Positions 10,310-52,475 of a DNA stretch of 64,000 bases are shown piece after piece. Origin of the DNA: Rhodospirillaceae bacterium SYSU D60007 (GTDB taxonomy: Bacteria > Pseudomonadota > Alphaproteobacteria > Reyranellales > Reyranellaceae); assembly GCA_003574685.1 (NCBI GenBank), contig QOCQ01000001.1, positions 186,001 to 250,000 of the forward strand, written 5' to 3'. The translations under genes and the position numbers were made by a program. Numbering within the stretch: position 1 is the stretch's first letter; each line of letters begins with the position of its first letter. The notes below the pieces were generated by a model, which did no database searches, was not told the origin of the DNA, and saw only the letters and a program-made list of their open reading frames with translations.

Positions 10310-10352
10310 CGGCGGCGCACCTCCCCCTTCGTGCCGGTGTGGAGCGGGGCCG

Positions 10353-13961: not shown

Positions 13962-15388
13962 ACGTGGCGGCCGTAGAGACTGATATCTGCATCATCGGTG
14001 CGGGTTCCGCCGGCCTGACGGTCGCCGCCGGTGCCGCGCAGCTTGGCCTGAAGGTCGTGCTGGTCGAGCGCGGCAAGATGGGCGGCGACTGTCTCAACTA
14101 CGGCTGTGTGCCTTCCAAGGCGCTGATTGCCGCCGCGCAGGCGGCGCAGGACATGCGCCGGGCCGGCCCGTTCGGTATCCGCGCGGTCGAACCGGTGATC
14201 GACTTTGCCGCCGTCATCGACCATGTCCATCGTGTCATCGCTGGCATCGCGCCCAACGATTCCGTCGAGCGCTTCGAGGGCCTGGGCGTCCAGGTAATCA
14301 AGGCCCAGGCGCGCTTCGTCTCGCCCGACGAGCTGGCGGTGGGCGAAGCAAGAATTCGCGCCCACCGGTTCGTGATCGCCACCGGTTCGCGGCCTGTGGC
14401 GCCGCCGATCCCAGGCCTGGCGGACACGCCGTACTTCACCAATGAGACGCTGTTCGAGAACCGGGTACGGCCGGAGCACCTGCTGATTGTCGGCGGCGGC
14501 GCCGTCGGCGTCGAGATGGCGCAGGCCCATGCCCGGCTGGGCGCGCGCGTGAGCGTCCTGGAAGCGGCCCGGCTTCTGGGCAGCGACGATCCCGAGCTGG
14601 TTGCTGTCGTGCGCCGGCGGCTGGAAGACGAAGGTGTTGCGCTTTACGAGCAGACCCGGGTGCTGCGCGTGGAACCGGACGGCACTGGAATTGCCGCCGT
14701 GATAGCAAACGGCAAAGGCGAGATGCGGCTGGCCGGCTCGCATCTGCTGGTCGCGGCCGGGCGTGCCCCCAACGTCGAGACGCTTGACCTCGGGCGGGCC
14801 GGCGTTGCCATGACGAAGAAGGGCATCACCGTCGATAAGCGGCTGCGCACCACAAACCGTCGCATCTATGCCATCGGCGACGTCAACGGCCTGTCGCCGT
14901 TCACGCACATGGCCGGCGCGCACGGCACCCTGGTCATCAAGCACGCGCTCTTCCGCTTGCCGGTGAACGTACGGTCCCTGCCCCTGCCATGGTGCACCTT
15001 TACCGACCCGGAACTGGCGCAGGTCGGTCTCACCGAAGCGCAGGCGCGGGCAGAGCATGGCGATGGAGTGCGGACGGTGAAATGGAAGCTGCACGAGAAC
15101 GACCGGGCGCAGGCTGAGCGCGAGACGGAGGGGCTGGTGAAGGTGGTGCTCGACCGGCGCGGACGGGTGCTGGGTGCGGGCATCGTGGGTCCGCACGCGG
15201 GCGAACTGATCCAGATCTGGTGTCTGGCGCTGTCACGGCGGATGAAAATCGGCGCCATGGCCAGGATGTTGGTGCCCTATCCTACGCTGGGGGAGATCAA
15301 CAAGCGCGCCGCCAGCGCCTGGTTCACCGACCGTCTTTTCTCGCCGCGGACCCGGCGCCTCGTCGGCTGGCTGTTTCGGCTCTGGTGA
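13958..15388 (+). CDS. FAD/NAD disulfide-oxidoreductase-family flavoprotein (mercuric reductase/Lpd-like)
   Basis: A 476-residue class I pyridine nucleotide-disulfide oxidoreductase. Order of domains: FAD-binding GAGSAGLTVAAGAA, redox-active disulfide GGDCLNYGCVPSK, NAD-binding IVGGGAVGVEMAQAHARLG, second FAD motif YAIGDVNG, and C-terminal dimer domain. The active-site His of dihydrolipoamide dehydrogenase (HPT..E) is replaced by Tyr in VPYPTLGEI, so it is not a standard Lpd. No MerA-type N-terminal domain or C-terminal cysteine pair is present. It starts with GTG, overlapping the TVP38-like gene. The tail ends in a short hydrophobic stretch (LVGWLFRLW). Substrate unknown. Confidence 0.85.
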   Translation: MNVAAVETDICIIGAGSAGLTVAAGAAQLGLKVVLVERGKMGGDCLNYGCVPSKALIAAAQAAQDMRRAGPFGIRAVEPVIDFAAVIDHVHRVIAGIAPNDSVERFEGLGVQVIKAQARFVSPDELAVGEARIRAHRFVIATGSRPVAPPIPGLADTPYFTNETLFENRVRPEHLLIVGGGAVGVEMAQAHARLGARVSVLEAARLLGSDDPELVAVVRRRLEDEGVALYEQTRVLRVEPDGTGIAAVIANGKGEMRLAGSHLLVAAGRAPNVETLDLGRAGVAMTKKGITVDKRLRTTNRRIYAIGDVNGLSPFTHMAGAHGTLVIKHALFRLPVNVRSLPLPWCTFTDPELAQVGLTEAQARAEHGDGVRTVKWKLHENDRAQAERETEGLVKVVLDRRGRVLGAGIVGPHAGELIQIWCLALSRRMKIGAMARMLVPYPTLGEINKRAASAWFTDRLFSPRTRRLVGWLFRLW

Positions 15389-30265: not shown

Positions 30266-30589
30266 GACGTGCCCCCCCGGTGGCAGCGTTTCAGGGTCCC
30301 CCAATACCGACATTAATGGTACTCCCGGTGAAAGTATTTCCGCAAGCGCAGTCTCGCCACTAACACCAAAGGTGTATGCGCGCACAGCGAGAGCCGATCA
30401 TTGATCCGCGGCGGTCGGCCGCGCCGGCGCGGGTGGTCATTACTCTTCGTGCTGCCGTTCGGCGCATCGCAGGAGGTACCCCTTCCTCGGCGGCAAGTAT
30501 CTCTGAATGCATCGTCCGCGCCGGCGCCGTGTCCCGTGAACTTTGCCTACAATGCAGCGTCACGACTTACTCAGGCCATTCGCAAGGCG
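30266..30589. other. Divergent intergenic region between the LuxR regulator and the export gene
   Basis: This 324-nt stretch has no supported gene. It includes a small dyad, TACC (30305-30308) and GGTA (30318-30321) around GACATTAAT, which could be a regulator site. The reading frames of both flanking genes extend into it, so part may be translated if the chosen starts are wrong. No clear promoter consensus was seen. Confidence 0.4.
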
Positions 30590-31849
30590 ATGTCTTCGAA
30601 GCTTGGAAATCAGGAATGCCGGCAGGTCCGATGGTGCCCTTCGGCAGGCGGCTGGGCAGCACTGATAGTTGTTGTCCTTCACGCATGGATGATTGCCTCT
30701 GCCACCGCTCAGCCATCAGTTGCGCAATCATACAGGATTGGAGCCGGCGACAAGGTCGGCGTCGTCGTCTTTGGCCAGCCCGATCTTTCCGGCGAGGTGA
30801 CTGTCGATCAGATCGGCAATCTTCGGCTGCCTATCATTGGTGATATCCGGGCAGTCGATCTCACGCTGGGCGAGTTGGAGAAGAGCATCGTTCAGTCGCT
30901 GGAGCAGGGGTACGTACGGCGCGCCGTGGTCAGCGCAAGGATTGCCGAGTTTCGCCCGATCCATGTGTTGGGCATGGTCCGGACGCCAGGGCTCTATTCT
31001 TACCAGCAGGGACAGTCGGCGCTCGCAGCCATAGCTCGCGCGGGCGGTATCGGCATCTCGGACCAGAGCCGCATGGGAGGAGATCTGGTGCAGGCCGACG
31101 AGCGCGTTCGTTTACTGGAGATCAGCCGCGTGGCGCTCACTGCCAGGCGGGCCCGGCTGATCGCGCTGCAGAATGGCGACGAGCGGATCAGTTTCCCGGA
31201 CATGTCCGGATTCCATGTCGATGCGGCCCGCATCGCCCAGATACGTGACGGGGAGCAGCGCGCATTCGACGCGGAGCGACAGGCCGAGCAAAGGGAGGTG
31301 GAGGCGCTCGAAAAGCAGATTCCACGCCTTCGAGCCGAGATCGCGTCGCTCCAGCAGCAAAGCAAGCTCGAGTTACAACAGCGCGACCTCAACCAGCAGC
31401 TTGTTGATGACTACGAGCGGCTGAGCAGATCGGGCCTTGCACGCAAGCAGACCTATATTGAGATAAGGCGCGAGGAAGCCCGTATAGAAGGGAACGTCGA
31501 GCGTCTGAAATCCGAGGCACTCAGGGCGGAAATTGCCATCGGCGACCTGCAATTCCGGATCACCGAGGTACGCAACAACTACCAGCGGCGTGTGGCGACG
31601 GAGCTGCGCGAAACCGACCGGTCACTGCTGGAATTGACCGTTTCGCTTCCGGCGGCGCAGCGCTTGCGCGCGATTCGGGCGCGGCAGACGGGATGGTTGA
31701 CGGGCGAACAGGCGCAGCCGCCAACCATAGTCGTAATCCGCGACAGGAGTATTTTGACCGTGAAGTATGATGCCGCCATCGACTTCATCGTGCAGCCGGG
31801 GGATGTAATACAGGTGGGCTCGCTTCTACCGCCCGAGATGGCCGACTGA
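30590..31849 (+). CDS. Polysaccharide export protein (Wza/OPX family)
   Basis: A 419-residue outer-membrane polysaccharide export protein. Signal peptide LIVVVLHAWMIASATAQ, then the Poly_export domain (YRIGAGDKVGVVVFGQPDLSG...) and one SLBB-like segment (RPIHVLGMVRTPGLYSYQ, ALAAIARAGGI). A long coiled coil of about 150 residues (AERQAEQREVEALEKQIPRL and onwards) follows, and a short final strand domain. No lipobox is evident, so it may not be a lipoprotein like Wza. Start ATG 30590 has AAGG upstream. It heads the export side of the locus. Confidence 0.88.
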   Translation: MSSKLGNQECRQVRWCPSAGGWAALIVVVLHAWMIASATAQPSVAQSYRIGAGDKVGVVVFGQPDLSGEVTVDQIGNLRLPIIGDIRAVDLTLGELEKSIVQSLEQGYVRRAVVSARIAEFRPIHVLGMVRTPGLYSYQQGQSALAAIARAGGIGISDQSRMGGDLVQADERVRLLEISRVALTARRARLIALQNGDERISFPDMSGFHVDAARIAQIRDGEQRAFDAERQAEQREVEALEKQIPRLRAEIASLQQQSKLELQQRDLNQQLVDDYERLSRSGLARKQTYIEIRREEARIEGNVERLKSEALRAEIAIGDLQFRITEVRNNYQRRVATELRETDRSLLELTVSLPAAQRLRAIRARQTGWLTGEQAQPPTIVVIRDRSILTVKYDAAIDFIVQPGDVIQVGSLLPPEMAD

Positions 31850-32062
31850 TCCGAAGCAGCTCAGGCAGTCATCTCCGGCTGCCTGTCATGACGGCGACCC
31901 GCAGTTGCATTGGGCGGGTATACTGGAAACCCTGACGATCGGAGTAGTCCGTCTTGGCGCTTGAGGCTGTGGCGATCCCGCCTAACGTGGTTCGCAGGAG
32001 CGGTACGGCCACTATGGCCGGATTTCGGCTCCAGGCTCGCGTGAATGGGCGGTTGTCGGCCT

Positions 32063-33583
32063 ATGACAAATGTCGAAGTGCCCGCGGTTCGCACATTTTC
32101 ACCGTCCGATAGCGGGCCCTTGCGGCTTCGAAAGGCCGGCAACAGGCGAACACCACAACGCGTCTCGCGATGGCACCACTTCGCCACAGAGCCCCTGGCA
32201 TGCGACCTCGTTGCCTGCACCGTGGCCATTGTCGTGGTTACTGCGGTGGTGGATGCCGCGCGCTCCGGTGGACTCAGCCTCGTTGATCGACTGTGGATGG
32301 AGATGCCGGCGACCCTGGTGATGCTGACCGGGATGTGTTCTCTGCTGGGTCTCTATCAGTCGAAAACCACGGATCTGATTGAGCGCTTTCGCCTGCGGGC
32401 AACGGCGATGCTGCTGTTCGTGTTCGTGGGAATGCTGATGGGGGCCCGCCATGGATCATTGGTCGATGTGGTGATCGTGCCGTTTATCGGCGCTGTCACG
32501 CTGGTTCTCAGCTCCTGGATCGAGCACCTGGTCCACGTACGACTCAGGCGGTCAGGCGGGTGGGGCGCGCCGGCCGCCATCCTTGGCACGGGGGCCAGTA
32601 GCCGGACGATCGCGCGTTTGCTGATGAGCCAGCCCGCCTGGGGGCTGATGCCTGTCGGCTTCATCAGCCATGACCTACCGGACAGTGACAATGCCAAGGG
32701 TACGCCCGACGGGGCAGGCGGGGATGATCGTGTTTCTGCGCTGCCTCTGCTCGGCACGATCGACGAGTGGCGTGTGCATGCTGGTGCCGAGATCATGATT
32801 GTGCCGGATGTCCAGGCGCTGCCGCGGGATTCCAATGAACTGTATCGGTGGGGCGCCCGGCAGATTCTCGTGATCAGTCAACTCGGCGAACTGGGTTCCT
32901 TCGGCGTTCACGTCCGGCATTTCGATCGATTTGTCGGCCTGGAGCTAAGTGGACGGCCGCGCCATCAGGGCTGGCGGCTTAAGCGCGCCATCGATCTCGC
33001 GCTGGCGTTGCCGCTGGCAGCCCTTGCGGGACCGATCGTCGCCTTGCTCGCCCTGACGGTGAGAATCCTGGACCCGGGTCCGGCCTTCTATGGCCAGCGA
33101 CGGGTAGGCCGCGACGGCAAGCCAATCCAGGTGTTGAAGCTGCGCACGATGTACCGGGATGCCGAACAGCGGCTTGAGCAGATGCTGGCGACAGACCCGA
33201 TGATGCGGGAACAGTGGCAGCGATACTTCAAGCTGCCGCGGGATCCCCGGATCCTTCCGCATATCGGTCACTTTCTGCGGCGCACCAGTCTGGATGAACT
33301 GCCGCAGCTCTGGAACGTGATCCGGGGAGATATGAGCCTTGTGGGGCCGCGGCCATTTCCCGCCTATCATCTGGAAGCCTTCGATCCCGAATTCCAGGCG
33401 ATGCGGTCGACCGTACCGCCTGGTCTCACGGGTCTTTGGCAGATCTCATCGCGCAGCGACGGCGACCTCGGCGTGCAGCGCGCACAGGATTGCTTCTACA
33501 TTCGCAACCGGTCGCTGTGGCTCGACCTCTACATCCTAATTGCGACATTGCCTGCAGTGATCGGTGGTCAGGGCGCGAAATGA
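32063..33583 (+). CDS. Polyprenyl-phosphate sugar-1-phosphate transferase (WbaP/ExoY-type)
   Basis: A 506-residue polytopic membrane phosphoglycosyl transferase that begins repeat-unit synthesis by moving a sugar-1-phosphate onto undecaprenyl phosphate. Four N-terminal helices, a CoA-binding-like middle domain ([18 protein letters not shown]), a re-entrant helix before [17 protein letters not shown], then [37 protein letters not shown] and [13 protein letters not shown] match the family. The sugar is unknown. ATG 32063 or 32045 may be the start; neither has a strong ribosome site. The 213 nt before it show nothing recognisable. Its end overlaps a convergent gene by 16 nt. Confidence 0.92.
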
Positions 33584-34974
33584 CTCACGGGCCGATCGCC
33601 GCGATTACGGACGCCAGCAGCAACGGCCCGGTGTCGGGCCCGGTCCGGCGGATCAACATCGGCCAACAGCTCGTCAAGCCAGGTTTCACCGCGGAACCGG
33701 CGGTACTGTTCCGCACGCAGTCGGTCGGCCAGCCGGCTGGTCGGCAACACGACGTCGCTATAGGTGATGACGGCGTCCCTGGGCATGTCGCGCGTCAATC
33801 GGCACCCTTCGACAAGGCCCTCCGGCAGATAGCGGCCGGCGCTCATCTCGTCCGTGTTAACGGCCTCGCCGTAGGTCATGTACATGCCATAGTCGTCGAG
33901 AATCTCGCCAGCCTTGAGGTCGCGCTTGGCGACTGCGCAAACCTCCACTACGGGGCCGGCAAGTGGCTTGACAACCGGATCCCGGAACAGGACTGCGCGG
34001 GCAATCGCATTCGGCACTTCGAAATGCACCAGGTGGTAAGGCGTGAAGAAGGAATAGAGCGGGCCTGTCCCCATCTTGTATAGATCGAGATAGTGCTGCT
34101 GCCTGGGATCCGGGTGCTCGGCCAGGCAATAGACCTTGGTCAGTGGCGTGCCGACGACATAGTCAACCGCGCCCCCGAGCCTGCGCAGCTCTTCGATGTC
34201 GTAGAGTTCGCCGATCTTCAGAACATCGCCGCGGTACTCAATGCCCCGCGACATGCCCCTGGAGCGGACCTTGAAGCCCGTGGCATTGGCGACCACAGAC
34301 TGTTCGAAGCTGATCTTGGAACCGTCCGCGAAGCTGGTCACCATCGTGGGATTCTGGCCCCAGCGTTCGGCGAAGCCCTTCTGTGTCGTCGGATTGCGAT
34401 AGCGATCCTGAAGACCTTTCACGTTGCCAAGCAGGCGCGGTGTAAGGCCGAGTCCCTTGACCCAGCGGTAGAGGTTCATCTGCACGCCGGGCTCGTCGCC
34501 CTCGCAGCCTGTCAGGATCACGCCATACTGGTCGGCATAGGTCTGCAGGACGGGGCCGATCGTGCCGTCGAGTTCGGCATTCATCAGCACGACATCCTTG
34601 CCGTGACGGAAAGCCTCAAGGGCGACATGGGCACCGAACTCGACCGAGCCGGTGACGTCGACGAGAACATCGATATGCTCCGAACGTGCGAGCAGCATGG
34701 CGTCCTCGGTCGCGACCGCGCGAAGGCGAACTGCCGCTTCGTCGAATTGCGTCTGCGAGCTGGCAACGGCGATATCCTCATAGCCGGCGTATCTGAATAC
34801 GCGGACCGCCCTGTCTGCCCGGCGATTGGATATTGCCACAACGCGCATGCCAGGCACGCTGTGGCGAATCTGGTTGGTCAGGCCCTGGCACATGAAACCG
34901 GCACCGACGATTCCGATCCGGACCGGCCGATTCTGCTCCTCGCGGGCATTCAGCGCCGTATCGACGATCCACAT
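33568..34974 (-). CDS. Homoserine-dehydrogenase-like oxidoreductase with C-terminal SAF domain
   Basis: A 468-residue NAD(P)-dependent oxidoreductase of the COG4091 type. The N-terminal Rossmann fold has GIVGAGFMCQGLTNQI and DVTGSVEFGAHVALEA; the middle includes LTGCEGDEPGVQMN and the C-terminal SAF domain begins near VVEVCAVAKRDLKAGEILDDYG. ATG 34974 has AGGGAG 7 nt upstream. It is the last gene of a five-gene operon with sugar-nucleotide enzymes, so a sugar substrate is more likely than homoserine, but this is inference. The 61-nt gap before it is the largest but one in the operon. Confidence 0.85.
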   Translation of the reverse strand: MWIVDTALNAREEQNRPVRIGIVGAGFMCQGLTNQIRHSVPGMRVVAISNRRADRAVRVFRYAGYEDIAVASSQTQFDEAAVRLRAVATEDAMLLARSEHIDVLVDVTGSVEFGAHVALEAFRHGKDVVLMNAELDGTIGPVLQTYADQYGVILTGCEGDEPGVQMNLYRWVKGLGLTPRLLGNVKGLQDRYRNPTTQKGFAERWGQNPTMVTSFADGSKISFEQSVVANATGFKVRSRGMSRGIEYRGDVLKIGELYDIEELRRLGGAVDYVVGTPLTKVYCLAEHPDPRQQHYLDLYKMGTGPLYSFFTPYHLVHFEVPNAIARAVLFRDPVVKPLAGPVVEVCAVAKRDLKAGEILDDYGMYMTYGEAVNTDEMSAGRYLPEGLVEGCRLTRDMPRDAVITYSDVVLPTSRLADRLRAEQYRRFRGETWLDELLADVDPPDRARHRAVAAGVRNRGDRPVSHFAP

Positions 34975-35035
34975 GACGTTGCTCCCTGTGCTCCGGATGC
35001 CCTGAAACAGAGGCGCTCGTTGACGACCGCGTTCG

Positions 35036-35614
35036 TCACGCGGCGGCACGTGGCAGGGACATCCTGCGTTTCAGCTCGCTTTCGATCTCGCGATAGGGGC
35101 GAAAACCCTGGTCCTTCGGCGAGACGACCGACACTGGCAATGGCCATTTCAGACCGAGTTGCGGTTCGTCGTACCGGAGACCGCCCTCGGCTTCCGGCGT
35201 GTAGAACTCTCCGAACTGATAGTTGGTATCCGTGTTGTCGCGTAGGGCCTGATAGCCGTGCGCGAAGCGTTCCGGCACGTAAAGGGCCGTCATGTTGTCC
35301 TCGTTGAGCTCTACGGCGATGTGCTCGAGGTAGGTCGGGCTTTCGGGCCGCAGGTCAACAATGATGTCAAGAATGGCGCCCCGCGTGCATCTGACCAGCT
35401 TTGTTTCGGCCACCGGCGGGTACTGAAAGTGCATCCCGCGCAACGTGCCGACCTTCTGGTTCTTGGCGATATTGGCCTGGGCGATTACAGGCTTCAGCCC
35501 GTGCTCCCGGAATTCGTTCTGGCAGAACGCACGGGCGAAAAAGCCGCGCTCGTCGTTCCTGCGTTCGAGGTCGATGATGAAGGCGCCCTTGAGCCTGGTT
35601 TCGGTGAAGATCAT
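35036..35614 (-). CDS. dTDP-4-dehydrorhamnose 3,5-epimerase-family (cupin) protein
   Basis: A 192-residue RmlC-type cupin epimerase. Catalytic-base His is in GTLRGMHFQYPP, DLRPESPTY and VPERFAHGYQAL are typical, and the catalytic Tyr is probably in NYQFGEFYTPEAEGG. Because no rmlA, rmlB or rmlD lies nearby, it likely acts on another 4-keto sugar nucleotide made in this operon rather than in L-rhamnose synthesis. AGGA precedes the start. Confidence 0.88.
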   Translation of the reverse strand: MIFTETRLKGAFIIDLERRNDERGFFARAFCQNEFREHGLKPVIAQANIAKNQKVGTLRGMHFQYPPVAETKLVRCTRGAILDIIVDLRPESPTYLEHIAVELNEDNMTALYVPERFAHGYQALRDNTDTNYQFGEFYTPEAEGGLRYDEPQLGLKWPLPVSVVSPKDQGFRPYREIESELKRRMSLPRAAA

Positions 35615-35627
35615 GTTCCGGTTCCTG

Positions 35628-36704
35628 TCAGTCGCTTGCCATCGCGATGCCGGACTCCAGCCTTTGCCCGGCGTTACGACGTTGTCTGAGGTCTTCCGTC
35701 AGGACGCCATCGGCGATCAGCCTTTGTATGTGGCTGATGCGCTGGTAACGCGGTCCTTCGAACTCCTCCAAGTTGAGCTTCACCATCCGATAGGCGGCAT
35801 AAAGCTGTTCGGCGCCGCGCCATGCATCGAACTGCGGCCTGAAGGCGGGCAGGACGCGCGCGATCTTTTCGAAGTTGACGCGATATGAACGCGTATCCGG
35901 GCTGGCGTCTGGCGCGAACTCGATCCGGCAGCCCGGGACTACGTCGGCGACGATGCCCGCCAGGTCACGAATACGATAATTGTGTCCGCTCTGGCCGACA
36001 TTGAACGCCTGATTGCACACCACCTCTTCCGGCGCCTCGAGGGCGGCGATAAACGCGCGCGAGATGTCCTCGACGTGGACGATGGGCCGCCACGGAGAGC
36101 CATCGGACTTGAGATAGATCCGACCTGTGGTGACCGCCCAGGCTACGAGATTGTTGAGGACGATATCGAACCGGATTCGCGGCGAAACGCCATAGGCTGT
36201 CGCCGGCCGCAAGAAGGTCGGGCAGAAGCCGTCTCCGGCCAGGGGGGAGATGTCGCGCTCGGAGCGCACCTTGGACTCGCCGTAGGCGGTCACCGGGTTG
36301 AGTGCACCGGTCTCATCGAGAATCTCCTCGCCGGCCTGCCCGTAGTTGCTGCACGACGAGGCCAGCAGGAAACGCCGGACCCCCGCCTGCCTGGCGAGGA
36401 CGGCCAGGCGCACGCTGGCGCGATGATTGATTTCGTAGGTGAGCTCCGGCCGGAAGCTCCCAAGAGGATCGTTTGACAGCGCGGCCAGGTGGATGACGGC
36501 ATCAAATCCGTCGAGGTCCGGAGGCTCGACATCGCGAACATCCTTGCGGATGTACGGCACCTGCACGATGCGGCCGCCACCAGAGAAGGTGCAGCGCTCA
36601 TAGAGATCGCTGTCGAGACCGATCACATCATGGCCGGCCTTCAGCAGCATCGGAACCATCACGGTTCCGATATAGCCCAGATGTCCAGTCACCATTACAC
36701 GCAT
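35628..36704 (-). CDS. NAD-dependent sugar-nucleotide epimerase/dehydratase (extended SDR)
   Basis: A 358-residue extended SDR with [20 protein letters not shown] at the N-terminus, [20 protein letters not shown], catalytic [16 protein letters not shown] and a [11 protein letters not shown] segment. Start ATG 36704 has AAGGAC close upstream. It follows the deacetylase and rfbF genes and is the only SDR in the operon, so it must supply any 4,6-dehydratase, epimerase or reductase step there. The exact reaction is unknown. Confidence 0.85.
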
Positions 36705-36753
36705 TTGTCCTTGCCCCCATGTGCATCGTGGTGCCCGTACCGCGGCCGCAGCT

Positions 36754-37407
36754 TCATTGCACGGCAAGCTTTCGTGCATGAAAGGCCTCGGCGAAACCTT
36801 CAGGGGCACGGCATTCCATGCCGCGCAGGCGCGCGAGGCCCATGAACATTTCACAGTCGAACCAGTCCTTGGAGCGCTGTGAGCCGAAATGGTCCTGGAG
36901 GAGTCTTGTCTTGCGCTCCATCAGCGCCTTGGTGGCGGGCAGGTAGACGTTCGGCTGGCCGGTGTCGCCGTCCCATTTCGGAATTTCGTATTCCAGGATC
37001 GCGTGATCGCGAAAGGTGTTCCAGGTCAGCCTGGATACTTCGCGATGATCCTGATGGGCATCATGACGCCAGTGGCAGAGTACGACATCGGGAGATGTGC
37101 GTCCGCGCAGGGCCTCGAACCAGTTCTTGATCTCGTCGCCCTGGTAAGGAAAGAAGCCGTCCTTGAAGGCCGCCAGATCGACGATAGCCCTGGCTGCGTT
37201 GGCCAGGAACTGCCTGGCCGACGCGCGTGCCTCGTCGGCGCGCGGTCCGATGGCACTGAGGACCGCCCAGTACGCATCGAGGCGGACACCGCGCTCGATC
37301 CAGCCCAGGATCGTGGCGCCTGCGCCGATCTCGATATCGTCCGCGTGAGCACCGATGCACAGCACGGAAAGGCGCTCTCCCGGACCCGCGAGCCCGAGGT
37401 GCTTCAT
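36754..37407 (-). CDS. PIG-L/LmbE-family deacetylase
   Basis: A 217-residue zinc-dependent N-deacetylase-type hydrolase. Metal motifs are [12 protein letters not shown] near the N-terminus and [13 protein letters not shown] in the middle. The family deacetylates N-acetylglucosamine-type groups on small glycosides or sugar nucleotides. The start overlaps the rfbF stop (ATGA), so translation is coupled and an intermediate of the same sugar pathway is the probable substrate. Confidence 0.88.
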
Positions 37408-38219
37408 CCGGTCTTCCTCTCGGCCGGAGTCAACGGCGGCCGGGCATTGCGGTCGAGCCGCCACGGCATCGTGCCCTGGTCCACGAGATCTTCCAGGATC
37501 TGCTTGTCCTTGAGCGTATCCATCGGGCGCCAGAAGCCTTCATGCCTGAACGCCATAAGCTGGTCGGCTTCGATCAGTCGCCGGAAGGGCGCCTCGACCA
37601 GCTCGTCGCCTTCGCGCATGTAGTCGAAGATCTCGGCCCGAAAGATGAAGAACCCGCCATTGACCCAGAGATTGGCATCCCTGCTGGAGCGAATTCTCTG
37701 GACCTTTCCGCTCGGCCGCATATCGACGAGATGCAGGCTGAATGATGGGCGGACTGCCAGGAAGCAGGCGATCTTGCCGCTGGTGCGGAAGGCCGCCGTC
37801 ATCTCGTTTAGGTCGGCATCCGACAGGCCGTCGCTGTAGTTGGCAAGGAACATCTCTTCGCCCGCGACGTGCTCGCGGACAGCCCACAGCCGCTGGCCGA
37901 TATTGCGCCAGATGCCAGTGTCGATCATCGTTATGCGCCAGTCCTGCTGCGGATCGCCAAGGATCTCGACGTTGTCGCCGAAGCCGGAGACGACGCAGTC
38001 GCTGTAGATCTGCGGCTTGTAGTTGAGGAAGAACTCCTTGACGATATTTGCCTTGTAGCCAAGGCACAGGATGAAGTCCTTGTGGCCAAACTGGCTGTAG
38101 TAGTGCATCAAATGCCAGAGGATCGGCTTGTCGCCGATCGGGATCATCGGCTTCGGTATGGTCTCGGACACGTCCCGGATTCGCGTTCCCAGACCGCCAC
38201 AGAACAGAACGGTTTTCAT
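37404..38219 (-). CDS. rfbF: Glucose-1-phosphate cytidylyltransferase-like sugar nucleotidyltransferase
   Basis: A 271-residue nucleotidyltransferase. FCGGLGTRIRDVSETIPKPM is the nucleotide-binding signature. GDKPILWHLMHYYSQFGHKD, NYSDGLSDADL, and the VNGGFFIF and RHEGFWRPMDTLKD segments match RfbF, which forms CDP-glucose. It is the first gene of the five-gene minus-strand operon. The usual partners rfbG and rfbH are absent here. A ribosome site AGAGG lies 8 nt upstream; 227 nt separate it from the divergent Wzz gene. Confidence 0.9.
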   Translation of the reverse strand: MKTVLFCGGLGTRIRDVSETIPKPMIPIGDKPILWHLMHYYSQFGHKDFILCLGYKANIVKEFFLNYKPQIYSDCVVSGFGDNVEILGDPQQDWRITMIDTGIWRNIGQRLWAVREHVAGEEMFLANYSDGLSDADLNEMTAAFRTSGKIACFLAVRPSFSLHLVDMRPSGKVQRIRSSRDANLWVNGGFFIFRAEIFDYMREGDELVEAPFRRLIEADQLMAFRHEGFWRPMDTLKDKQILEDLVDQGTMPWRLDRNARPPLTPAERKTG

Positions 38220-40887: not shown

Positions 40888-42231
40888 ATGGGCCCCAAAC
40901 TTCTTATCGAGAGAGCATCATGGACGCTCGTCGACCAGGGCGTGGTGAGCTTCGGCAATTTCCTGCTTACCGTGCTGCTCGCGCGCACCCTCAGCGAGGC
41001 GGACTACGGGAAGTTCGTGCTTTTCCTCGGCGTCGTCTTTGTCGGACGGGTGTTCGACTATTCCCTCATCTCCTATCCGCTGTCGGTACGCCTGTGCGTC
41101 GCGGACGATGAGGAGCGCGCGGGGCTGCTCGGGAACACGATCCTCCTTACCGCGATCCTGAGTCTCGTTCTGGTCGTGGCCGTGGCGCTTGGAACCACGC
41201 TGCTGGGGGTCGACAATATCCGGCTGCCGGCGTGCCTCTGCTTCTTGTGCTGGCAGGCGCAGGAGACTTCGCGGCGATGCCTGCTCGCCGATTTCCGCTA
41301 TCGTGCGGCGGTGGCCGGAGATGGTACCGCTTATGTCGGACAGGCCGTTCTGATCGTACTCCTGTCCTGGCTCGGCGGCATCACGCTTCCTTCCGCGCTT
41401 TATATGATGTCAGCGACCTTCGCGATCGGCGCCCTGGTCCATGCCTCGAAACTGCGATTTGCCTGGCCGGATTTTTCCGAAGCGCGGATCTTGGCGCGCG
41501 AATTCCTTTCAGTCGGGAAGTGGTCGCTCGTCAACTATCAGCTCGTGATCTTCCGCGGTCAGCTCTTTCCATGGGTGCTCGCGGGTGTTGCAGGGACCGC
41601 CGCGACCGCATCGCTCCAGGCCGGAGCGAACATCGCCGGCACAATGACCCCGATCATTCTGGGCATCGGCAATGCTATCCCGCAGGTCGCAGCGCAGGCA
41701 CACCGCACCGCGGGCGTCATTGGCGCGGCGCGCGCAGCCTATGGGTATGTCCTCTTCGGCCTGGCGCCGGTGCTGGCTATCTGCGCCGCAGCCGTTCTGA
41801 TACCGGAGCTGCTTCTGCGGACGGTCTATGGGCCATCGTCGCCTTACGTTGCCGTCGCGATGGGTTTGCAGATTCTCGCCGTCGCCGGTGTGCTCGACTA
41901 CATCGCGGACGCCGCCAACAAGATGCTGCTTGGCGTTGAAGCAGGGAGGCTCGCCTCTCTGGTCAATCTCGTGGCGGTCGCCGCGGCGGCGGTGATGGCT
42001 TTCGCGCTGATCGGCCGTCTCGGCGTAATCGGCGCATGCGTCGGCCTTTTGGTTGCCAACCTGGTGCGCGCGACCGGCGCCGTGCTCGCGATCGCGTGGC
42101 TGATCAATAACGAAAAGTCGCGCGAGCCGGCGCTGTCTGGCGCGGCCGCCACCCCGGCTGGGATTGAGGAGGTTGTCGGTGGTCCCGCGGAACAGGCGAT
42201 TGCAATGAACGGCCGACTCGAGAATGACTGA
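40888..42231 (+). CDS. Wzx-type oligosaccharide flippase
   Basis: A 447-residue membrane protein with about twelve hydrophobic segments of the MVF/MATE superfamily, starting RASWTLVDQGVVSFGNFLLT and LLARTLSEADYGKFVLF, typical of Wzx. It would flip the undecaprenyl-linked repeat unit to the periplasm. GAGGG lies 8 nt upstream. The 3' end overlaps the polymerase gene by 8 nt. Confidence 0.88.
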   Translation: MGPKLLIERASWTLVDQGVVSFGNFLLTVLLARTLSEADYGKFVLFLGVVFVGRVFDYSLISYPLSVRLCVADDEERAGLLGNTILLTAILSLVLVVAVALGTTLLGVDNIRLPACLCFLCWQAQETSRRCLLADFRYRAAVAGDGTAYVGQAVLIVLLSWLGGITLPSALYMMSATFAIGALVHASKLRFAWPDFSEARILAREFLSVGKWSLVNYQLVIFRGQLFPWVLAGVAGTAATASLQAGANIAGTMTPIILGIGNAIPQVAAQAHRTAGVIGAARAAYGYVLFGLAPVLAICAAAVLIPELLLRTVYGPSSPYVAVAMGLQILAVAGVLDYIADAANKMLLGVEAGRLASLVNLVAVAAAAVMAFALIGRLGVIGACVGLLVANLVRATGAVLAIAWLINNEKSREPALSGAAATPAGIEEVVGGPAEQAIAMNGRLEND

Positions 42232-43570
42232 CACTTTCAAAATCCAATCTCGGGGTGCGCTTTCGGAGGGCGATCGATATCTCGCGTTCCTCGCGATCGT
42301 CCTGCTGGGCTATGCGCTGATGGGAAGAGGCTTCGCTTATCTCGGCTTGCCACCGCTCTATGTGGGCGAGATTGCACTCCTCATCGGGATCATCGTCTTT
42401 CTCAGAAGCGGCGCATTGATCGCGTCGCTTGCGACTCTGACTGGTATCGTACTTGTTGCGCTGATGGTGTGGGTCCTGGCGCGAACAATTCCGTTCCTGG
42501 GCGTGTACGGGCTCGACGCCTTGCGCGATAGCACCGTCGTCACGTATGGCGTCTTCGCCTTCATCGTCATTGGTTTGTTGCTCGAGGACGCCCGAAGGAT
42601 CGATACGGTACTTCGCTACTACAACATGTTGGTGGTGAGCTTTCCCGCGATATTCGTGGGGTTCTGTCTCACCCTGTTCTGGGTGGAATACATCCCGAGG
42701 TTAGTCGGACCGGCGGCGATTGTGGACATTACGACGAGTGCGGTTGGCACGCATCTGGCCGGAACGATGGTTTTCGTTTTGATCGGCTATCGGAGAGTTT
42801 CTTCCCTCTGGCTTCTCGTCTGGTTCGCCACGCTTACCCTGGTCGCCGCGACCAATCGCGGCGCTACCCTTGCCGTCCTTGGTCCGGTTGTGTTCTCGAT
42901 GCTCCTGCTGGGACGATGGCGCCTGCTGCTGGCGGCAATATTGGGGATCGTGAGCGTCTTTGCCGTTCTCCTTGCGGTCGAGGGCAGTTTCACCCACGAC
43001 AATGTGGCCGAGCGATCGGCCCCGCGGGTCGTCAGCGCGCACCAGATACTCAAAAACGCCGAGAGCATTCTGGGGGACTCCGGCGAGCAGAATGTCGAAG
43101 GAACCAAGCGGTGGCGGCTCGAATGGTGGGACATCATTATCGACGATACCATCTACGGGCCGAACTTCTGGACCGGCAGGGGATTCGGCCTGAATCTCGC
43201 CGACGCCGACGGACACGCCGGCCCGCCAATGGGCCCCCCGACACGAAGCCCGCACAACGTGAGCATGACGCTGCTCGCGCGCGCCGGAGTGCCCGGCCTC
43301 GTATTGTGGTCGCTCCTGCTCATATCGTGGGGCAGCATGATGCTGCGCGCGATGCTGGTCGCCCGCGCCCGCGGACACCAGGAATGGGCCGACCTCTTCT
43401 TGTTTATTGGCTGCTACGCGACATCGATCCTCATCAACGCGTTCGTTGACGTAACGCTCGAGGGACCCATGCAGGGCATCTGGTTCTGGTGCCTGTTTGG
43501 CTTCGGCATTGGTTCAGCGATGGTCTACCGCGCTCAGGCTGCTAGTGGACTGGGAATCTCACCCCGATGA
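42224..43570 (+). CDS. Wzy-type O-antigen polymerase/ligase family protein
   Basis: A 448-residue polytopic protein with about eleven hydrophobic segments and one long periplasmic loop near residues 250-350. The loop has GRGFGLNLADADG and RSPHNVSMTLLARAGVPGLV, matching the H-N-x-x-L region of the Wzy_C/WaaL family. Next to Wzx and Wzz it most likely polymerises repeat units; a ligase role cannot be excluded by sequence alone. Base composition seems somewhat less GC-rich than the housekeeping genes. Confidence 0.85.
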   Translation: MTDTFKIQSRGALSEGDRYLAFLAIVLLGYALMGRGFAYLGLPPLYVGEIALLIGIIVFLRSGALIASLATLTGIVLVALMVWVLARTIPFLGVYGLDALRDSTVVTYGVFAFIVIGLLLEDARRIDTVLRYYNMLVVSFPAIFVGFCLTLFWVEYIPRLVGPAAIVDITTSAVGTHLAGTMVFVLIGYRRVSSLWLLVWFATLTLVAATNRGATLAVLGPVVFSMLLLGRWRLLLAAILGIVSVFAVLLAVEGSFTHDNVAERSAPRVVSAHQILKNAESILGDSGEQNVEGTKRWRLEWWDIIIDDTIYGPNFWTGRGFGLNLADADGHAGPPMGPPTRSPHNVSMTLLARAGVPGLVLWSLLLISWGSMMLRAMLVARARGHQEWADLFLFIGCYATSILINAFVDVTLEGPMQGIWFWCLFGFGIGSAMVYRAQAASGLGISPR

Positions 43571-46331: not shown

Positions 46332-47330
46332 ATGGTCGATGCCGACCAATGCAAGGGATTCGACCCGTTGCCGAGGCTGTCGATTGGGATCCCGGTGTTC
46401 AACGGACAGGAGTTCCTTCCGGGACTGCTTGAAAGCCTGTTGGCGCAGACTTTTCGAGACTTCGAGATCCTGATCTGTGACAACGCCTCGAGCGATCGCA
46501 CCCCGGAGATCTGCCGCGAGTACGGGCAGCGTGACAGCCGCATTCACTACATTCGCAATGAACGGAACCTGGGGGCGATCGAGAACTTCAATCGGGTGTT
46601 CGCGTTCGCGACAGCACCCCTGTTCAAGTGGGCGGCGCACGATGACGTCCACCACGAGCTCTACCTGGAGACGTGCGTCAGGGTGCTCGACGACAATTCC
46701 GATATCGTTCTGGCGCACACGGGAACAGCCTTCATAGACGAAAAGGGAGAGATCCTCCCTCTTGAACAGGAGACAGGAAGCTTTGTCGATCCACGGAGCG
46801 GCAAGCGTTATTGGGCCGACGGTCCCGGCATTGGCGATACCCCCGTTGCCGCCGAGCGATTCTGGCAGGTCCTCACGCGTGCGCGCTGGGGCACGCACAT
46901 GTTTGGCGTTATCCGTCACGGCGCATTGCAGCAAACATCCCTGCTGCCCAAGTTTGCCGGAAGTGATCGCGCAATGCTGGCGGAACTAGCCTTGCTTGGC
47001 CGCTTTCGATGTGCAAGCGAGCCATTGTTCTTCAAGCGGCTCCATACGAACGTTTCGTATGCGCTTGGTCACAAGGAACTCAAAGCCTTTCTGAGCACTG
47101 ATGGCCGGTACTATTCCCGTCGGCTGCGGCAGATGAAGGCGTTCTTTGGTGCGTCAAGAGGGAAGCCGATCAGCGGTCTGAGCAAGGCGGTGTGCTTCAT
47201 ACTGGTGGCGGTACATAGCGCCAGGGTCGCGATACAATTTGTTACCCAGGGCGATCCGCGCACAGCGGCCCATGGTTATGGATGGTCCGGGCCGCTTGCC
47301 CGTTGGCCGCGCTGGAGAACACCCGGCTAG
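46332..47330 (+). CDS. Glycosyltransferase family 2
   Basis: A 332-residue GT-A transferase. N-terminal LSIGIPVFNGQEFLPGLLES and ILICDNASSDRTPEIC are classic GT2; the D-x-D-like site is probably AAHDDVHH. A hydrophobic stretch near the C-terminus (VCFILVAVHSARVAIQF) could anchor it. ATG 46332 was chosen; GTG 46287 is also in frame. Last plus-strand gene of the run; its stop overlaps the convergent WecG-type gene by 4 nt. Confidence 0.9.
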   Translation: MVDADQCKGFDPLPRLSIGIPVFNGQEFLPGLLESLLAQTFRDFEILICDNASSDRTPEICREYGQRDSRIHYIRNERNLGAIENFNRVFAFATAPLFKWAAHDDVHHELYLETCVRVLDDNSDIVLAHTGTAFIDEKGEILPLEQETGSFVDPRSGKRYWADGPGIGDTPVAAERFWQVLTRARWGTHMFGVIRHGALQQTSLLPKFAGSDRAMLAELALLGRFRCASEPLFFKRLHTNVSYALGHKELKAFLSTDGRYYSRRLRQMKAFFGASRGKPISGLSKAVCFILVAVHSARVAIQFVTQGDPRTAAHGYGWSGPLARWPRWRTPG

Positions 47331-48184
47331 ACGGTTTCACGCTGTCTGACCCGCGTCGCGTACCTGCCGGCCCGCTGCAGCGTGTCCAGCAGCCAATAGG
47401 ACACGAACATGGAATTGTATTGCAGGTACCGCGGGCCCAGGCGAAGCGGCTCCTTGCATACCCGGTAGGCCCAGGTCAGTCCCGTCCGTTGCATCCATGC
47501 CGGCGCGAATGATCGCCGGCCGCTGAGCAGTGTGAATGCATCGCCAACGGCAAGGAACACACCGCCCCGATACCGCGGCTGATTGTCGATAATCCACTGT
47601 TCCATCCGAACGCCGGGCAGCGCTACCCAGACAAAGTCCGGATTGGCCCGATTGATGGTATCGGCAAACAACGCTTCGTCGGTCTCCGTGAACGGCCTGA
47701 ACGGTGGGGAAAGCATGCCGGCAATCTCGATATCCGGCTGCAATTGCACCAGCACGCGCCGCAGCTCGACGAGGCACGCGGCGGAATCACCGAAGAAGAA
47801 ATGGCGCCAGGGACGCGGTGTATGGCGCAGAACGTACCGCATGAAGTAAGGGCCGTACACGCGGTCTTTCAGGCCGGCGCCGCGGGCGTTGAGTGCCCAG
47901 ACGACTGGCATTCCGTCCGGCAACACGAGATCGAACCGGGCCAGTGCCCGACCGAACTCACGGTTGTGCCGTGCCTCGGCAAGGATGTGGGTGTTGGAGG
48001 GGCAAACCGCAGTGGGCCGCGATTCGCGGGCGAGCGTCCTGATTCGCTCAAGCGCAGAAGCGTAGGTGGCACAAGCGACCGGCGTTCCGAGAACGCTCAC
48101 GGTTTCCGGCGCTCCCCCCTTTGAACGCCAGGTATCAAATGGCGCCGGGGCGGAGGGATCGCCGTCGGTCGGGCTTCGGCTCAC
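47327..48184 (-). CDS. WecG/TagA/CpsF-family glycosyltransferase (GT26)
   Basis: A 285-residue GT26 enzyme. Recognisable parts are VCPSNTHILAEARHN, RFDLVLPDGMPVVWAL, FFFGDSAACLVELRR, and NPDFVWVALPGVRMEQWI with the GGVFLAVGDAFTLLSG tail. Members add UDP-ManNAcA, ManNAc or glucuronic acid to lipid-linked sugars. GTG 48184 overlaps the upstream dehydrogenase stop (GTGA), which is why it was chosen over starts farther inside that gene. Coupling to a UDP-sugar dehydrogenase suggests a uronic-acid donor. Confidence 0.88.
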   Translation of the reverse strand: MSRSPTDGDPSAPAPFDTWRSKGGAPETVSVLGTPVACATYASALERIRTLARESRPTAVCPSNTHILAEARHNREFGRALARFDLVLPDGMPVVWALNARGAGLKDRVYGPYFMRYVLRHTPRPWRHFFFGDSAACLVELRRVLVQLQPDIEIAGMLSPPFRPFTETDEALFADTINRANPDFVWVALPGVRMEQWIIDNQPRYRGGVFLAVGDAFTLLSGRRSFAPAWMQRTGLTWAYRVCKEPLRLGPRYLQYNSMFVSYWLLDTLQRAGRYATRVRQRETV

Positions 48185-49545
48185 CTTTGCCACGGCGCGA
48201 AAACCTTGGTGTTCATGGTGGTCGCCAGGCCCCTGTATTGGGGCCACGGGCAGCAAACAACCGCCAGTTTCACGCGGGGATTGTTCCTGAATTCCTCCCA
48301 GTCGAGGATCAGTTCGAACCCGCGAAGGCCTGGCGCATTGGCGGGTGTGGCAGCGAAGTCGTGGACGAGTACGCGATAGCCGTGCCGCTGGAGTTGCTGC
48401 GCCAGGAAGAGTCCCGCCGCCTCCTCTGTGATATACGTCCCCGGTTTGTAGGTGACGCCCAGCACCGCAACGGTGTCGCCAGGGCTGGCCATTTCCTGCA
48501 CTGTCTCGACAAGGTTCCTCTTGGTTTGCTCGTTCACTCGGTCCGAAGCGTCCGCCAGGGGCGCTTCCAGACCAACCTGTCGGGCAGTGTAGGCCAGAAG
48601 GCGGTTGTCGCGCGGGAAACAGGGGCCGCCATAACTCAGGCCGGCACGCAAGTATTTCCTTCCGATCCGGCTGTCCGTACCGAGAGCGTCGAGTATGGCG
48701 TGGACATCGGCCCGCGGATAGCGCGCAGCAATCAGCCGCAACTGATTCGTGAAGCTGATCTTCATTGTGATGTAGCTGTTCAGCGAGATCTTCGCCAGCT
48801 CGGCGCTGACGATGGACATGCGGGCGATCAGCGGAGCATTGCGATTGTATGTTTTGTAGAGCTGCTCAAGTGCGGCTCCGCCGTGGGGATCCGATTCGCC
48901 GATCAGTACGAGGTCCGGTTCGAGCAAGCCGTTGACTACGTCGCCCAGCGCAATGAACTCGGGATTGTAGCAGACACTGAAATCCTGGCCGCAGATGCCA
49001 CCGAGCTCCCGTTCCAGCATGGGAATCAGAACCGCGTCCATGGCACCGGGCGTGGTCGTCGAGCTACAGACAAACAGATGATTTCGCTTGCCGGCGGCTT
49101 TCATGGCCCTGGCCACGGCCTGCATCGCCTGCAACAGGAACTCATTGGAGAAGCTCCCGTCCGGTGAACTGGGAGAGGGAGTAATGAAGAAGGTGGCGTC
49201 GGTCGCAACGGTTTCGCGCGGATCGAGCGTGGCGCGAAGTCGTGAACGTCCATCGCGGATGGTCTCGGCAAGCAGAGGCTCATCCAACGGCGGCAGCCCA
49301 TCGTTGATTTTTCTGACCTTCTCCTGATCGATGTCCACTCCCACGACCTCAAGTCCGCGGGCTGCCATCGTCGCAGCGATGCACGCGCCCAGCTTTCCCA
49401 GTCCGCAAACCGACACTTTCCTGATGGCCTTCGCGCACGGCGAGGCAACAGCGCCGGTGCTCGCGTCATCGCAGGCGGGGGCCACTACCGACAAGGATGG
49501 CGGCAGCGAGTCGCGAGCGACCAGGTCTGACAACACATGGTCCAT
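48181..49545 (-). CDS. UDP-glucose/GDP-mannose 6-dehydrogenase family protein
   Basis: A 454-residue nucleotide-sugar dehydrogenase that oxidises C6 of a hexose nucleotide to the uronic acid. NAD motif VCGLGKLGACIAATMAARG, middle VCYNPEFIALGDVVNG, active-site cysteine in YGGPCFPRDNRLL and C-terminal VLGVTYKPGTYITEEAAG. About 40 residues precede the NAD domain, longer than average. Specificity (UDP-Glc, UDP-ManNAc or GDP-Man) is not decidable here. Confidence 0.88.
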   Translation of the reverse strand: MDHVLSDLVARDSLPPSLSVVAPACDDASTGAVASPCAKAIRKVSVCGLGKLGACIAATMAARGLEVVGVDIDQEKVRKINDGLPPLDEPLLAETIRDGRSRLRATLDPRETVATDATFFITPSPSSPDGSFSNEFLLQAMQAVARAMKAAGKRNHLFVCSSTTTPGAMDAVLIPMLERELGGICGQDFSVCYNPEFIALGDVVNGLLEPDLVLIGESDPHGGAALEQLYKTYNRNAPLIARMSIVSAELAKISLNSYITMKISFTNQLRLIAARYPRADVHAILDALGTDSRIGRKYLRAGLSYGGPCFPRDNRLLAYTARQVGLEAPLADASDRVNEQTKRNLVETVQEMASPGDTVAVLGVTYKPGTYITEEAAGLFLAQQLQRHGYRVLVHDFAATPANAPGLRGFELILDWEEFRNNPRVKLAVVCCPWPQYRGLATTMNTKVFAPWQR

Positions 49546-49588
49546 CGTTGGCGTCCTGGCTGATGGGATGCGGGTGATGGGATGCGGG

Positions 49589-50800
49589 TCAAACTTTCGC
49601 TGCACGCAAACCTGGTTGCACCCTGTCTTCGGTTATTTTCTGACGCAATCCCGGGGTACCACCAACGCATGCAGTTTGCGGCTCGCTCGCCCTTGCTGCT
49701 GTCACCGCCTCGGCGGCTATGCATGCGGCGACCGGCCTGGAGCGTGACGCCGGCTCGCTTGCGTCATCGGAAATGCGTTCCAGCCAAATCTCGCGCCACC
49801 ACAGATGGATGCTTCGGGGGCAAAACATCCGGCGCCCCGAGTAGAAGGCGTTGCAGGTGACACCCTCCAATATGACAGCCGGTGTCTTCATCCGGCGCAT
49901 TTGTCCTGTCGTCTCGTCAATAAAGCGTTCGACGCAGGCACTGACCCGAAAGACCTTGCCGCAGAATGGGACGAGCTCGGCGTCGAACGAAAGACCTCGG
50001 TTCGACAGGTTTGTGTTCAGTGTCGTCAGGATCTCGTCATATGACTTCACCCGCACCAGGTCGCCGGGTTTGAGTCCAAGGTCGCGTCGCGGCGTCGGCT
50101 GCCCGACCGGGATCCTGCCTTTCAATCGGGGAAACGGGATGCCGCCGACGATGGCCTGGTATCGATTGTAAAGCCAGCGGGCAGGGCGGCCCCATCTGTC
50201 GCTGAATGCCAGTGTTCCGTAGTAGTAAAACAAGTACCAAAGCCCGCGGCAGATCCCGGGCAGTGTCTGGTTGCCGGAGGTATAGGCCTCCAGGTACTGC
50301 CTGGCATCCCACCATCTGAGCGGCGTTGTGTAGCCGAGCAGTTCAGTAGCCTGGCAGGAATATCGCGTTTCGCCTGCTGTGCTTTCCCGGGTGGTCGCCG
50401 CCATCCACGCGCCGTGATCCACACAATGGCTTTCCGGGCACGTACTACTGAGAGGGCTCTTGCCGACAGGGAGCGCATTCTGTGTCTGCACCGGACCATC
50501 GACAGGCTTCAACCACGCATTCTTCCAGAAGATCAGGCACCCGGCCTGGCACCCGCCAAAGGCTTGCCCGTCGCACCGGATCTCGAGGTGGACGCCGTCC
50601 GGCAGGCTTCGCCCGGCATAGTCGCCGCTGACGGTATCACACGTCTTGTACGCGCTCTTGTAGACGCGGAACCGTTGGCCGCAGTACCGGAACATCTGCG
50701 GCATGAACGGAAGGCCGTCCAGGCGGCCATTCTTGTCGAGCGTACCGAGGATTTCCTCTTTGCTCCGGACCTCCACCCAGTCATTGGCGCGCAGCTTCAT
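49589..50800 (-). CDS. Uncharacterised protein with a duplicated cysteine-containing domain
   Basis: I do not recognise a characterised family for this 403-residue protein. Two related halves are visible. Residues about 4-105 have NDWVEVRSKEEILGTLDKNG, FRYCGQRFRV, KTCDTV, EIRCDG, GGCQAGC and FWKNAWLK. Residues about 255-365 have GDLVRVKSYDEILTTLNTN, VPFCGKVFRV, SACVERF, EGVTCNA, MFCPRSIHLWW and REIWLE. Each starts like a small beta-barrel and keeps four aligned cysteines, suggesting metal or disulfide sites. The linker (GLWYLFYYYGTLAF) is aromatic. No signal peptide is seen. Start ATG 50800 is tentative. It follows the dehydrogenase gene upstream on the same strand and is divergent from a kinase-like gene. 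Confidence 0.8.
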   Translation of the reverse strand: MKLRANDWVEVRSKEEILGTLDKNGRLDGLPFMPQMFRYCGQRFRVYKSAYKTCDTVSGDYAGRSLPDGVHLEIRCDGQAFGGCQAGCLIFWKNAWLKPVDGPVQTQNALPVGKSPLSSTCPESHCVDHGAWMAATTRESTAGETRYSCQATELLGYTTPLRWWDARQYLEAYTSGNQTLPGICRGLWYLFYYYGTLAFSDRWGRPARWLYNRYQAIVGGIPFPRLKGRIPVGQPTPRRDLGLKPGDLVRVKSYDEILTTLNTNLSNRGLSFDAELVPFCGKVFRVSACVERFIDETTGQMRRMKTPAVILEGVTCNAFYSGRRMFCPRSIHLWWREIWLERISDDASEPASRSRPVAACIAAEAVTAARASEPQTACVGGTPGLRQKITEDRVQPGLRAAKV

Positions 50801-50993: not shown

Positions 50994-52475
50994 GTGGGTG
51001 AGCGCGACCGCTTCAAGCTGTCTTCCGTCTCGGCGTGGAATGAGGCGCTCGACCCGGGGGCCCACGTCGGCAGGTACGAGCTTTGCAAGCTGCGCGGGCG
51101 GGACAGATTTGGCCTCACCTATCACGGCCGTGACCTGCATCTGAAATGCGACGTTGCCATCAAGGAGTATCTGCCGACCGATGTTGCGGCCAGGCAAACG
51201 GACGATTCAGTGTGGCCGCGCTCGCCCGATCTCGTGGACCGGTACATTTGGGGGCGCAATCGTCTGCTGGCGGATGCTGCGGCCTTGCAGGAGCTTGGCA
51301 GCGCGCCAGGCATCATCCGCATCCTTGACTGCGTGGAGGCCAACGGAACCGCTTATGTAGTGATGGCCGCGGATCCAGGCGAGACTGTCGCTGCGCTGCT
51401 CGCCCGTCATCACAGGTTGTCGCCAGCATCCATGGAACGACTGGCGCCCTCCCTGCTGGACGTCCTGGAGCGCATGCATGCACGGGGCTTCCTGCACCTC
51501 GACATCAAGCCCTCCAGCATCCTTGTCAATGAGCGAGGACATCCCGCGCTGGCCGACTTCGGCATGGCTCATGTCGGGATTGCCATGCAGGGGCAATCGA
51601 CGGCTCTGGCGCCCGGGTCTGAATATGCAGCGCTTGAGCGGTTTACCGGCGAACAGACCGGGCCATTCACCGACGTATATGGTCTGGCGGCCACACTATA
51701 CCGCTGCACCACCGGGCTGGTTCCTCCCGCCGCGATCAGTCGGGCTATGGATGACAGTCTCGTTCCTGCATCCGGGATTGCCGCCGGACAATACCGGGCG
51801 GGTCTGTTGGCCGGCATCGACGCAGGGGTGGCGCTGAGAGTGACCGAGCGTCCCCAGTCGATCATGGATTGGCGTCCATGCTTCACGACATGCAGGGCCA
51901 CAACACCACAGCGGGACCAGGCGATGGCGGTCTCGCCGATCGACCAGCAGGCTCCTCCGCCTGTGCCGCCGGAAGACAAGGCAGGCCCGCTCCCGCTTCT
52001 GGCACACCGGGCTGGCGCTGGCCGACGCGCATCGGGCCGTGCTTCGGCCATTGCGCTCCTGGCGGCAATCGCGGGCACGGTCGTTGCAAGTAGCGCATCT
52101 CGGGAACCCGTTGAAAGGCGGATGGCATCCGGGCAGGTCCCGGCGAACATGGAGAGACGCGCGACGACCGAAACCACCCTGCACACGCAGGATGCGCCGA
52201 AGGTCCATCGGCAGGCTGCTGAAGGGGTGAAGCACACGGACGGGGTCGGGACGGAAGCGGAGTCAGCCCGGCGACGTGCGGAACGGCTCAGCGATACCGC
52301 GGAAACGTTGCGCCGCCTGGAAGCGGAATGGGCGCGCCACGACCGTGAGGTCCTGGCAAGGACAGCAAGACGGCAGCAAGCGGAAGAGGAAATTCGCCGG
52401 GCGGCAGAAGCACTGCGAAAGCGAACAGACATGCAGGGCCGGCTCGAAGCGGAGACCAGACGCAAGGGAGAGTGA
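50994..52475 (+). CDS. Ser/Thr protein-kinase-like membrane protein
   Basis: A 493-residue protein. Kinase fold at residues about 27-290: weak glycine loop (RGRDRFGLTYHG), VAIKEYLP lysine, catalytic loop HLDIKPSSILV, DFG motif in ALADFGMAH, and activation segment EYAALERFTG. The catalytic Asn after the HxD motif is replaced by Ser. A proline-rich linker, one membrane helix (ASAIALLAAIAGTVVASSA) and a charged coiled coil (RRAERLSDTAETLRRLEAEW and onwards) follow, facing the periplasm if the kinase is cytoplasmic. The GTG start has GGGAGGAA just upstream. It may control the neighbouring polysaccharide genes; target unknown. Confidence 0.87.
   Translation: MGERDRFKLSSVSAWNEALDPGAHVGRYELCKLRGRDRFGLTYHGRDLHLKCDVAIKEYLPTDVAARQTDDSVWPRSPDLVDRYIWGRNRLLADAAALQELGSAPGIIRILDCVEANGTAYVVMAADPGETVAALLARHHRLSPASMERLAPSLLDVLERMHARGFLHLDIKPSSILVNERGHPALADFGMAHVGIAMQGQSTALAPGSEYAALERFTGEQTGPFTDVYGLAATLYRCTTGLVPPAAISRAMDDSLVPASGIAAGQYRAGLLAGIDAGVALRVTERPQSIMDWRPCFTTCRATTPQRDQAMAVSPIDQQAPPPVPPEDKAGPLPLLAHRAGAGRRASGRASAIALLAAIAGTVVASSASREPVERRMASGQVPANMERRATTETTLHTQDAPKVHRQAAEGVKHTDGVGTEAESARRRAERLSDTAETLRRLEAEWARHDREVLARTARRQQAEEEIRRAAEALRKRTDMQGRLEAETRRKGE

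Follow-up and report, generated by a model that had tools for sequence, protein, structure and literature searches.

A conserved bacterial protein with two predicted SH3-like barrels, linked to one nucleotide-sugar cassette in surface polysaccharide loci

Introduction

The DUF4910 gene neighbourhood (CA_C2195), in which an epimerase, a nucleotidyltransferase and a methylase are found, has been proposed to serve the synthesis of a modified surface carbohydrate (PMC4000134). DUF4910 is likewise frequent in the nucleotide-sugar cassette that accompanies the focal gene of this study, whose family is not mentioned in the passages of that account concerned with CA_C2195 (PMC4000134). The two arrangements also differ in that, in one type of focal-gene locus, DUF4910 is replaced together with the sugar C-methyltransferase by a DRL-type oxidoreductase.

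At the level of predicted structure, two other described systems come closest. The nitrile hydratase beta subunit has a small SH3-like barrel of the sort predicted for the focal protein, and such chains gave the top Foldseek matches, which are weak (E from 1.6e-3; TM 0.18/0.28), with a VIA Z of 5.6 for 4zgd_B. The TM-scores of 0.2-0.3 nevertheless set the two apart, as do the additional conserved cysteines of the focal protein. The nitrile hydratase beta profile of Pfam or NCBIfam did not match the focal protein at E up to 1, a gene for the alpha-subunit partner, with its cobalt/iron site, was not found among the window neighbours scanned, and no gene scanned in the whole analysis matched nitrile hydratase. 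The eukaryotic Mind bomb MIB repeats resemble the focal protein in having two SH3-like barrels per chain, one of which aligns at Z 7.1; they gave the highest VIA Z of all (7.1-7.4), with 4tse_A at 2.3 A over 72 residues. However, no sequence relation was detected, the Pfam MIB/SH3 repeat profile did not match, and a Z below 8 may mean merely a common arrangement.

The polysaccharide locus

The focal gene lies in a window of 64,000 nucleotides, the whole stretch of DNA that was analysed. A preliminary description of this DNA had placed the gene in a polysaccharide locus, and the content of the neighbouring genes confirms it: an export protein, an initiating sugar transferase, Wzz, Wzy, glycosyltransferases and a probable, distant flippase are present. 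The initiating transferase, flippase, polymerase and export protein by which a Wzx/Wzy-type locus is recognised thus occur here, as they do in loci of relatives. The main features are as follows.

30401..31849, plus strand: Poly_export (Wza-like) outer-membrane export protein
32045..33583, plus strand: bacterial sugar transferase (initiating phosphoglycosyltransferase)
33568..35049, minus strand: cassette, DRL-type oxidoreductase (PF21135 with SAF domain)
35036..35614, minus strand: cassette, RmlC-like dTDP-sugar isomerase
35628..36854, minus strand: cassette, SDR epimerase/dehydratase
36754..37464, minus strand: cassette, PIG-L deacetylase, co-occurring with the focal gene across genomes
37404..38219, minus strand: cassette, sugar-phosphate nucleotidyltransferase (most cassette-bearing loci have a homologue; a relative matches Pfam NTP_transferase)
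40888..42231, plus strand: probable flippase (profile-profile probability 96.7, E = 3e-10; no Pfam match)
42224..43570, plus strand: Wzy_C (O-antigen ligase/polymerase) protein
47327..48256, minus strand: WecG/TagA/CpsF-family glycosyltransferase, third gene of a putative operon
48181..49605, minus strand: UDP-glucose/GDP-mannose dehydrogenase, downstream of the focal gene on the same strand
49589..50800, minus strand: focal gene, unnamed protein of 403 aa (conserved part, residues 1-345)
50994-52475, divergent from the focal gene: kinase-like protein in which a Pkinase domain is followed by a long, charged C-terminal part

The minus-strand cassette thus occupies 33568-38219. The probable flippase of the window (40888..42231) is distant from the Polysacc_synt_3 flippases found next to the focal gene in other loci. 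The dehydrogenase reading frame (48181..49605) has an in-frame ATG at 49545 that is its likelier start, and the order focal gene, dehydrogenase, WecG is the same in loci L004, L088 and L090. The focal reading frame itself extends on the minus strand from an ATG at 50800 to a stop at 49589; a longer form starting at a GTG at 51118 is unlikely, since the relatives begin, in alignment, at the position of ATG 50800. A control region shared with the divergent kinase-like gene had also been suggested. Its position was correctly given (GTG 50994, with 193 bp between the starts), but the linkage is not conserved: no kinase homologue was found in any other polysaccharide locus examined with the focal gene, and a meaningful link between the two genes is not supported.

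Distribution of the family

No family match was obtained for the focal protein in Pfam, NCBIfam, PHROGs or PDB sequences, public records name its relatives 'hypothetical protein', and the literature searched for the cassette and for a cytosolic flippase partner does not describe the family. Relatives were not found in phages and viral contigs. Among bacteria they are spread over four phyla, the gene being present in 6/75 genomes of the window's own family, 2/385 sampled across the class, 22/341 of the family of a Bradyrhizobium relative, 97/345 of an actinomycete order and 8/179 of the phylum of an Acidiferrales relative, as well as in a Geomonas and on Mesorhizobium and Bosea plasmids. One Bradyrhizobium metagenome-assembled genome (L010) carries two diverged copies close together on opposite strands (10001-11029 and 13442-14467).

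Domain organization and duplication

Four parts can be distinguished in the protein, all encoded on the minus strand.

50501..50800: residues 1-100, predicted N-terminal SH3-like barrel (C54, C76, C84 and C88 invariant; C40 near-invariant)
50087..50500: residues 101-238, linker with a variable stretch, then an invariant Cys149-Gln150, and two helices
49766..50086: residues 239-345, predicted C-terminal SH3-like barrel (C316 and C327 invariant; C280 mostly conserved)
49589..49765: residues 346-403 and stop, variable C-terminal tail that does not align with relatives

The homology of the two ends, noticed by eye in the preliminary description, is significant: residues 1-125 and 226-345 align in blastp at E = 5e-13 with 28/103 identities, and their local alignment score is 109, whereas 2000 shuffles averaged 26 and never exceeded 56. 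A domain HMM matches both copies at about 1e-36, the window's own domains being among its building sequences. In a tree of 62 domains all N-domains stand apart from all C-domains, with clade support of 100/98 for the former and a weaker 65/31 for the latter. This separation fits a single duplication older than the sampled lineages, and the alignment of the halves together with the tree supports the ancient duplication that had been proposed. Two findings that would have told against it, halves that do not align and a lack of homologues outside this strain, are contradicted by this alignment and by the spread over four phyla.

The proposed small beta-barrel-like domain also finds support. An AlphaFold2 model built from 11 sequences (pLDDT 78, pTM 0.77) shows a helical linker flanked by two matching barrels. 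Predicted by itself, the linker reached a pLDDT of 62.8, too low for a fold search. Together with the fold matches, the model supports two SH3-like barrels, and membership in any of the matched families is not implied. SH3-like ribosomal proteins gave a VIA Z of about 6, PsaE and PetP-like SH3 proteins were among the weak Foldseek matches, and a search of viral structures returned weak SH3-like matches only.

Conserved cysteines and predicted metal site

Two copies of a four-cysteine domain had been described. Three cysteines are indeed common to both domains (C40=C280 in a CG motif, C76=C316 and C84=C327), but four equivalent cysteines per copy are not supported: C54 and C88 of the N-domain have no counterpart in the C-domain, whose own fourth cysteine, C289, is not conserved in relatives. 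Among 74 distinct double-domain proteins, C54, C76, C84 and C88 are present in 74/74 and C40 in 72/74, while in the C-domain C316 and C327 occur in 74/74 and C280 in 64/74. Single-domain proteins have equivalents of C76, C84 and C88 in 6/6 cases and of C40 in 4/6. The linker pair Cys149-Gln150 is invariant in alignments of relatives, and a Cys-Gln pair is found near the start of 5/6 single-domain proteins. Many charged residues are invariant as well, and the conservation of charged and cysteine residues taken together is very high.

Metal or disulfide sites had been suggested for these cysteines, and their invariance makes metal sites probable. A hydropathy scan that included the linker detected no segment of transmembrane strength (maximum 19-residue hydropathy 0.67 in the window protein; 1.21 at most), and no signal peptide is apparent in the sequence, as the conserved start runs straight into the barrel. 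For these reasons metal binding is favoured over disulfides, the predicted Cys4 site of the N-barrel most likely holding zinc, with iron less likely. Structural disulfides in an exported protein would agree with the finding that, in some members, each domain has an even number of conserved cysteines, but the sequence shows neither a signal peptide nor a transmembrane segment, and this explanation is considered very improbable. A membrane-anchoring linker helix was also considered and not adopted, as hydropathy is low and hydrophobic moments mostly do not exceed those of shuffles. A CDGSH iron-sulfur site, judged by the ligand set C-x-C ... C-D-G-(S/A/T)-x-H, was rejected: the CDG occurs without any C-x-C upstream of it, the histidine is Y or F in 21/74 proteins, and there is no Pfam match.

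Linkage to one nucleotide-sugar cassette

The suggested linkage to polysaccharide genes proved real and specific, and it concerns one nucleotide-sugar cassette. This comprises a nucleotidyltransferase, PIG-L, SDR and RmlC genes with either a C-methyltransferase, usually accompanied by DUF4910, or DRL. Most of these genes lie near the focal gene in Actinomycetota, Alphaproteobacteria, Geomonas and an Acidiferrales genome; gene calls in the relatives' loci came from a crude script, and their boundaries are approximate. Across 50 loci, 25 carry the C-methyltransferase alone, seven carry DRL alone and none has both. The DRL oxidoreductase takes the place of the C-methyltransferase, and usually of DUF4910 too, in the window and in L007, L095, L097, L098, L120 and L121. 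Both routes may lead to branched sugars of a related kind.

Co-occurrence extends beyond immediate proximity. In the window's family, the same 6/75 genomes carry the focal gene and the cassette PIG-L, even where the genes are 8-12 kb apart. Were genomes independent, such a match of the two sets would have a chance probability of about 5e-9; they are not independent. In the actinomycete order, 91/92 genomes with a strong PIG-L match, by a threshold chosen after the scores were seen, also have the focal gene, and nine weaker matches (about 54% identity or less) fall in genomes that have no focal gene. G936 is the sole genome of that order with a strong cassette PIG-L in which the focal gene went undetected, possibly through real loss or through an assembly gap. 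Shared descent inflates such counts, but a joint presence as patchy as this speaks for a functional unit. In 26/27 loci with a Polysacc_synt_3 flippase, the closest such flippase is no more than 119 bp from the focal domains; it is the adjacent gene in nearly all cases, in both gene orders (upstream and downstream) and once divergent. This contact is not universal, because in the window's own group a linked flippase is absent or distant.

Near one-to-one co-occurrence, and charged and cysteine residues conserved to a very high degree, would suit a metalloenzyme, with an active site built from the Cys4 site and conserved residues in the two barrels that carries out a step missing from the modified-sugar pathway. 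On balance this seems unlikely, given that four invariant cysteines usually mark a structural, coordinatively saturated site, that SH3-like barrels alone are rarely catalytic and that some members have no cassette. A metallochaperone or activator for a cassette metalloenzyme (PIG-L or DUF4910) would be another possibility, by analogy with nitrile hydratase activators, which resemble the beta chain. It would fit both the nitrile hydratase beta chains among the best fold matches and the almost one-to-one presence of PIG-L. The fold match is weak, however, no gene fusion was seen, and PIG-L enzymes are not known to depend on activators; this role is improbable.

Members outside the cassette

Several double-domain proteins found in the Acidobacteria search are not located with the cassette, some of them in Holophaga-like genomes. 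In two related genomes (L144:9121-9837 and L147:8523-9272), the double-domain gene adjoins RIC/ScdA, which serves iron-centre repair, and there are no sugar genes in the vicinity. Single-domain relatives comprise five proteins in four Desulfobacterota genomes and a lone domain copy in one genome from the Acidobacteria search, which groups with the C-domains in the tree. They adjoin radical SAM genes in L084, L085, L086 and L146, three of these with a B12-binding domain, and FemAB-like GNAT genes are recurrent as well.

Radical SAM neighbours in four loci, RIC/ScdA beside two double-domain members and the PsaE and PetP-like matches would fit a redox or iron-sulfur related protein with an original role elsewhere, later recruited to polysaccharide loci. 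As the cysteine spacing differs from the classical iron-sulfur motif and most members have no redox partner, this origin is judged quite improbable.

Proposed role and significance

The reading preferred here, tentatively and at somewhat less than an even chance, is that of a soluble, probably metal-binding, obligate and non-catalytic adaptor dedicated to the cassette or its flippase. Two SH3-like barrels would be joined by the helical linker with its Cys-Gln pair, with the metal held in the Cys4 site of the N-barrel. As a dedicated part of one surface-polysaccharide module, the adaptor would be located among the cassette enzymes or on the cytoplasmic side of the flippase, and could couple completion of the modified sugar unit to its transfer or export. 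Against this adaptor role stand the members without the cassette in Holophaga-like genomes, which lie beside an iron-repair gene instead, the missing or remote flippase in the window's own group, the many invariant charged residues, which would suit an enzyme too, and the weakness of the fold matches (Foldseek E of 1.6e-3 at best, VIA Z no higher than 7.4).

Beyond the adaptor, a broader reading, which appears rather doubtful, would make the protein a new obligate component, possibly a metal-dependent enzyme on tandem SH3-like barrels, of a widespread, uncharacterised pathway for C-branched surface sugars with two interchangeable routes (C-methyltransferase or DRL). The focal protein is probably a missing working part of a modified cell-surface sugar pathway. 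That a conserved, unnamed protein follows one sugar cassette from phylum to phylum points to a step or partner of surface-polysaccharide synthesis that has gone unrecognised, and the focal gene and cassette genes together would provide a handle on an unknown sugar of actinomycetes and of soil and plant-associated bacteria.
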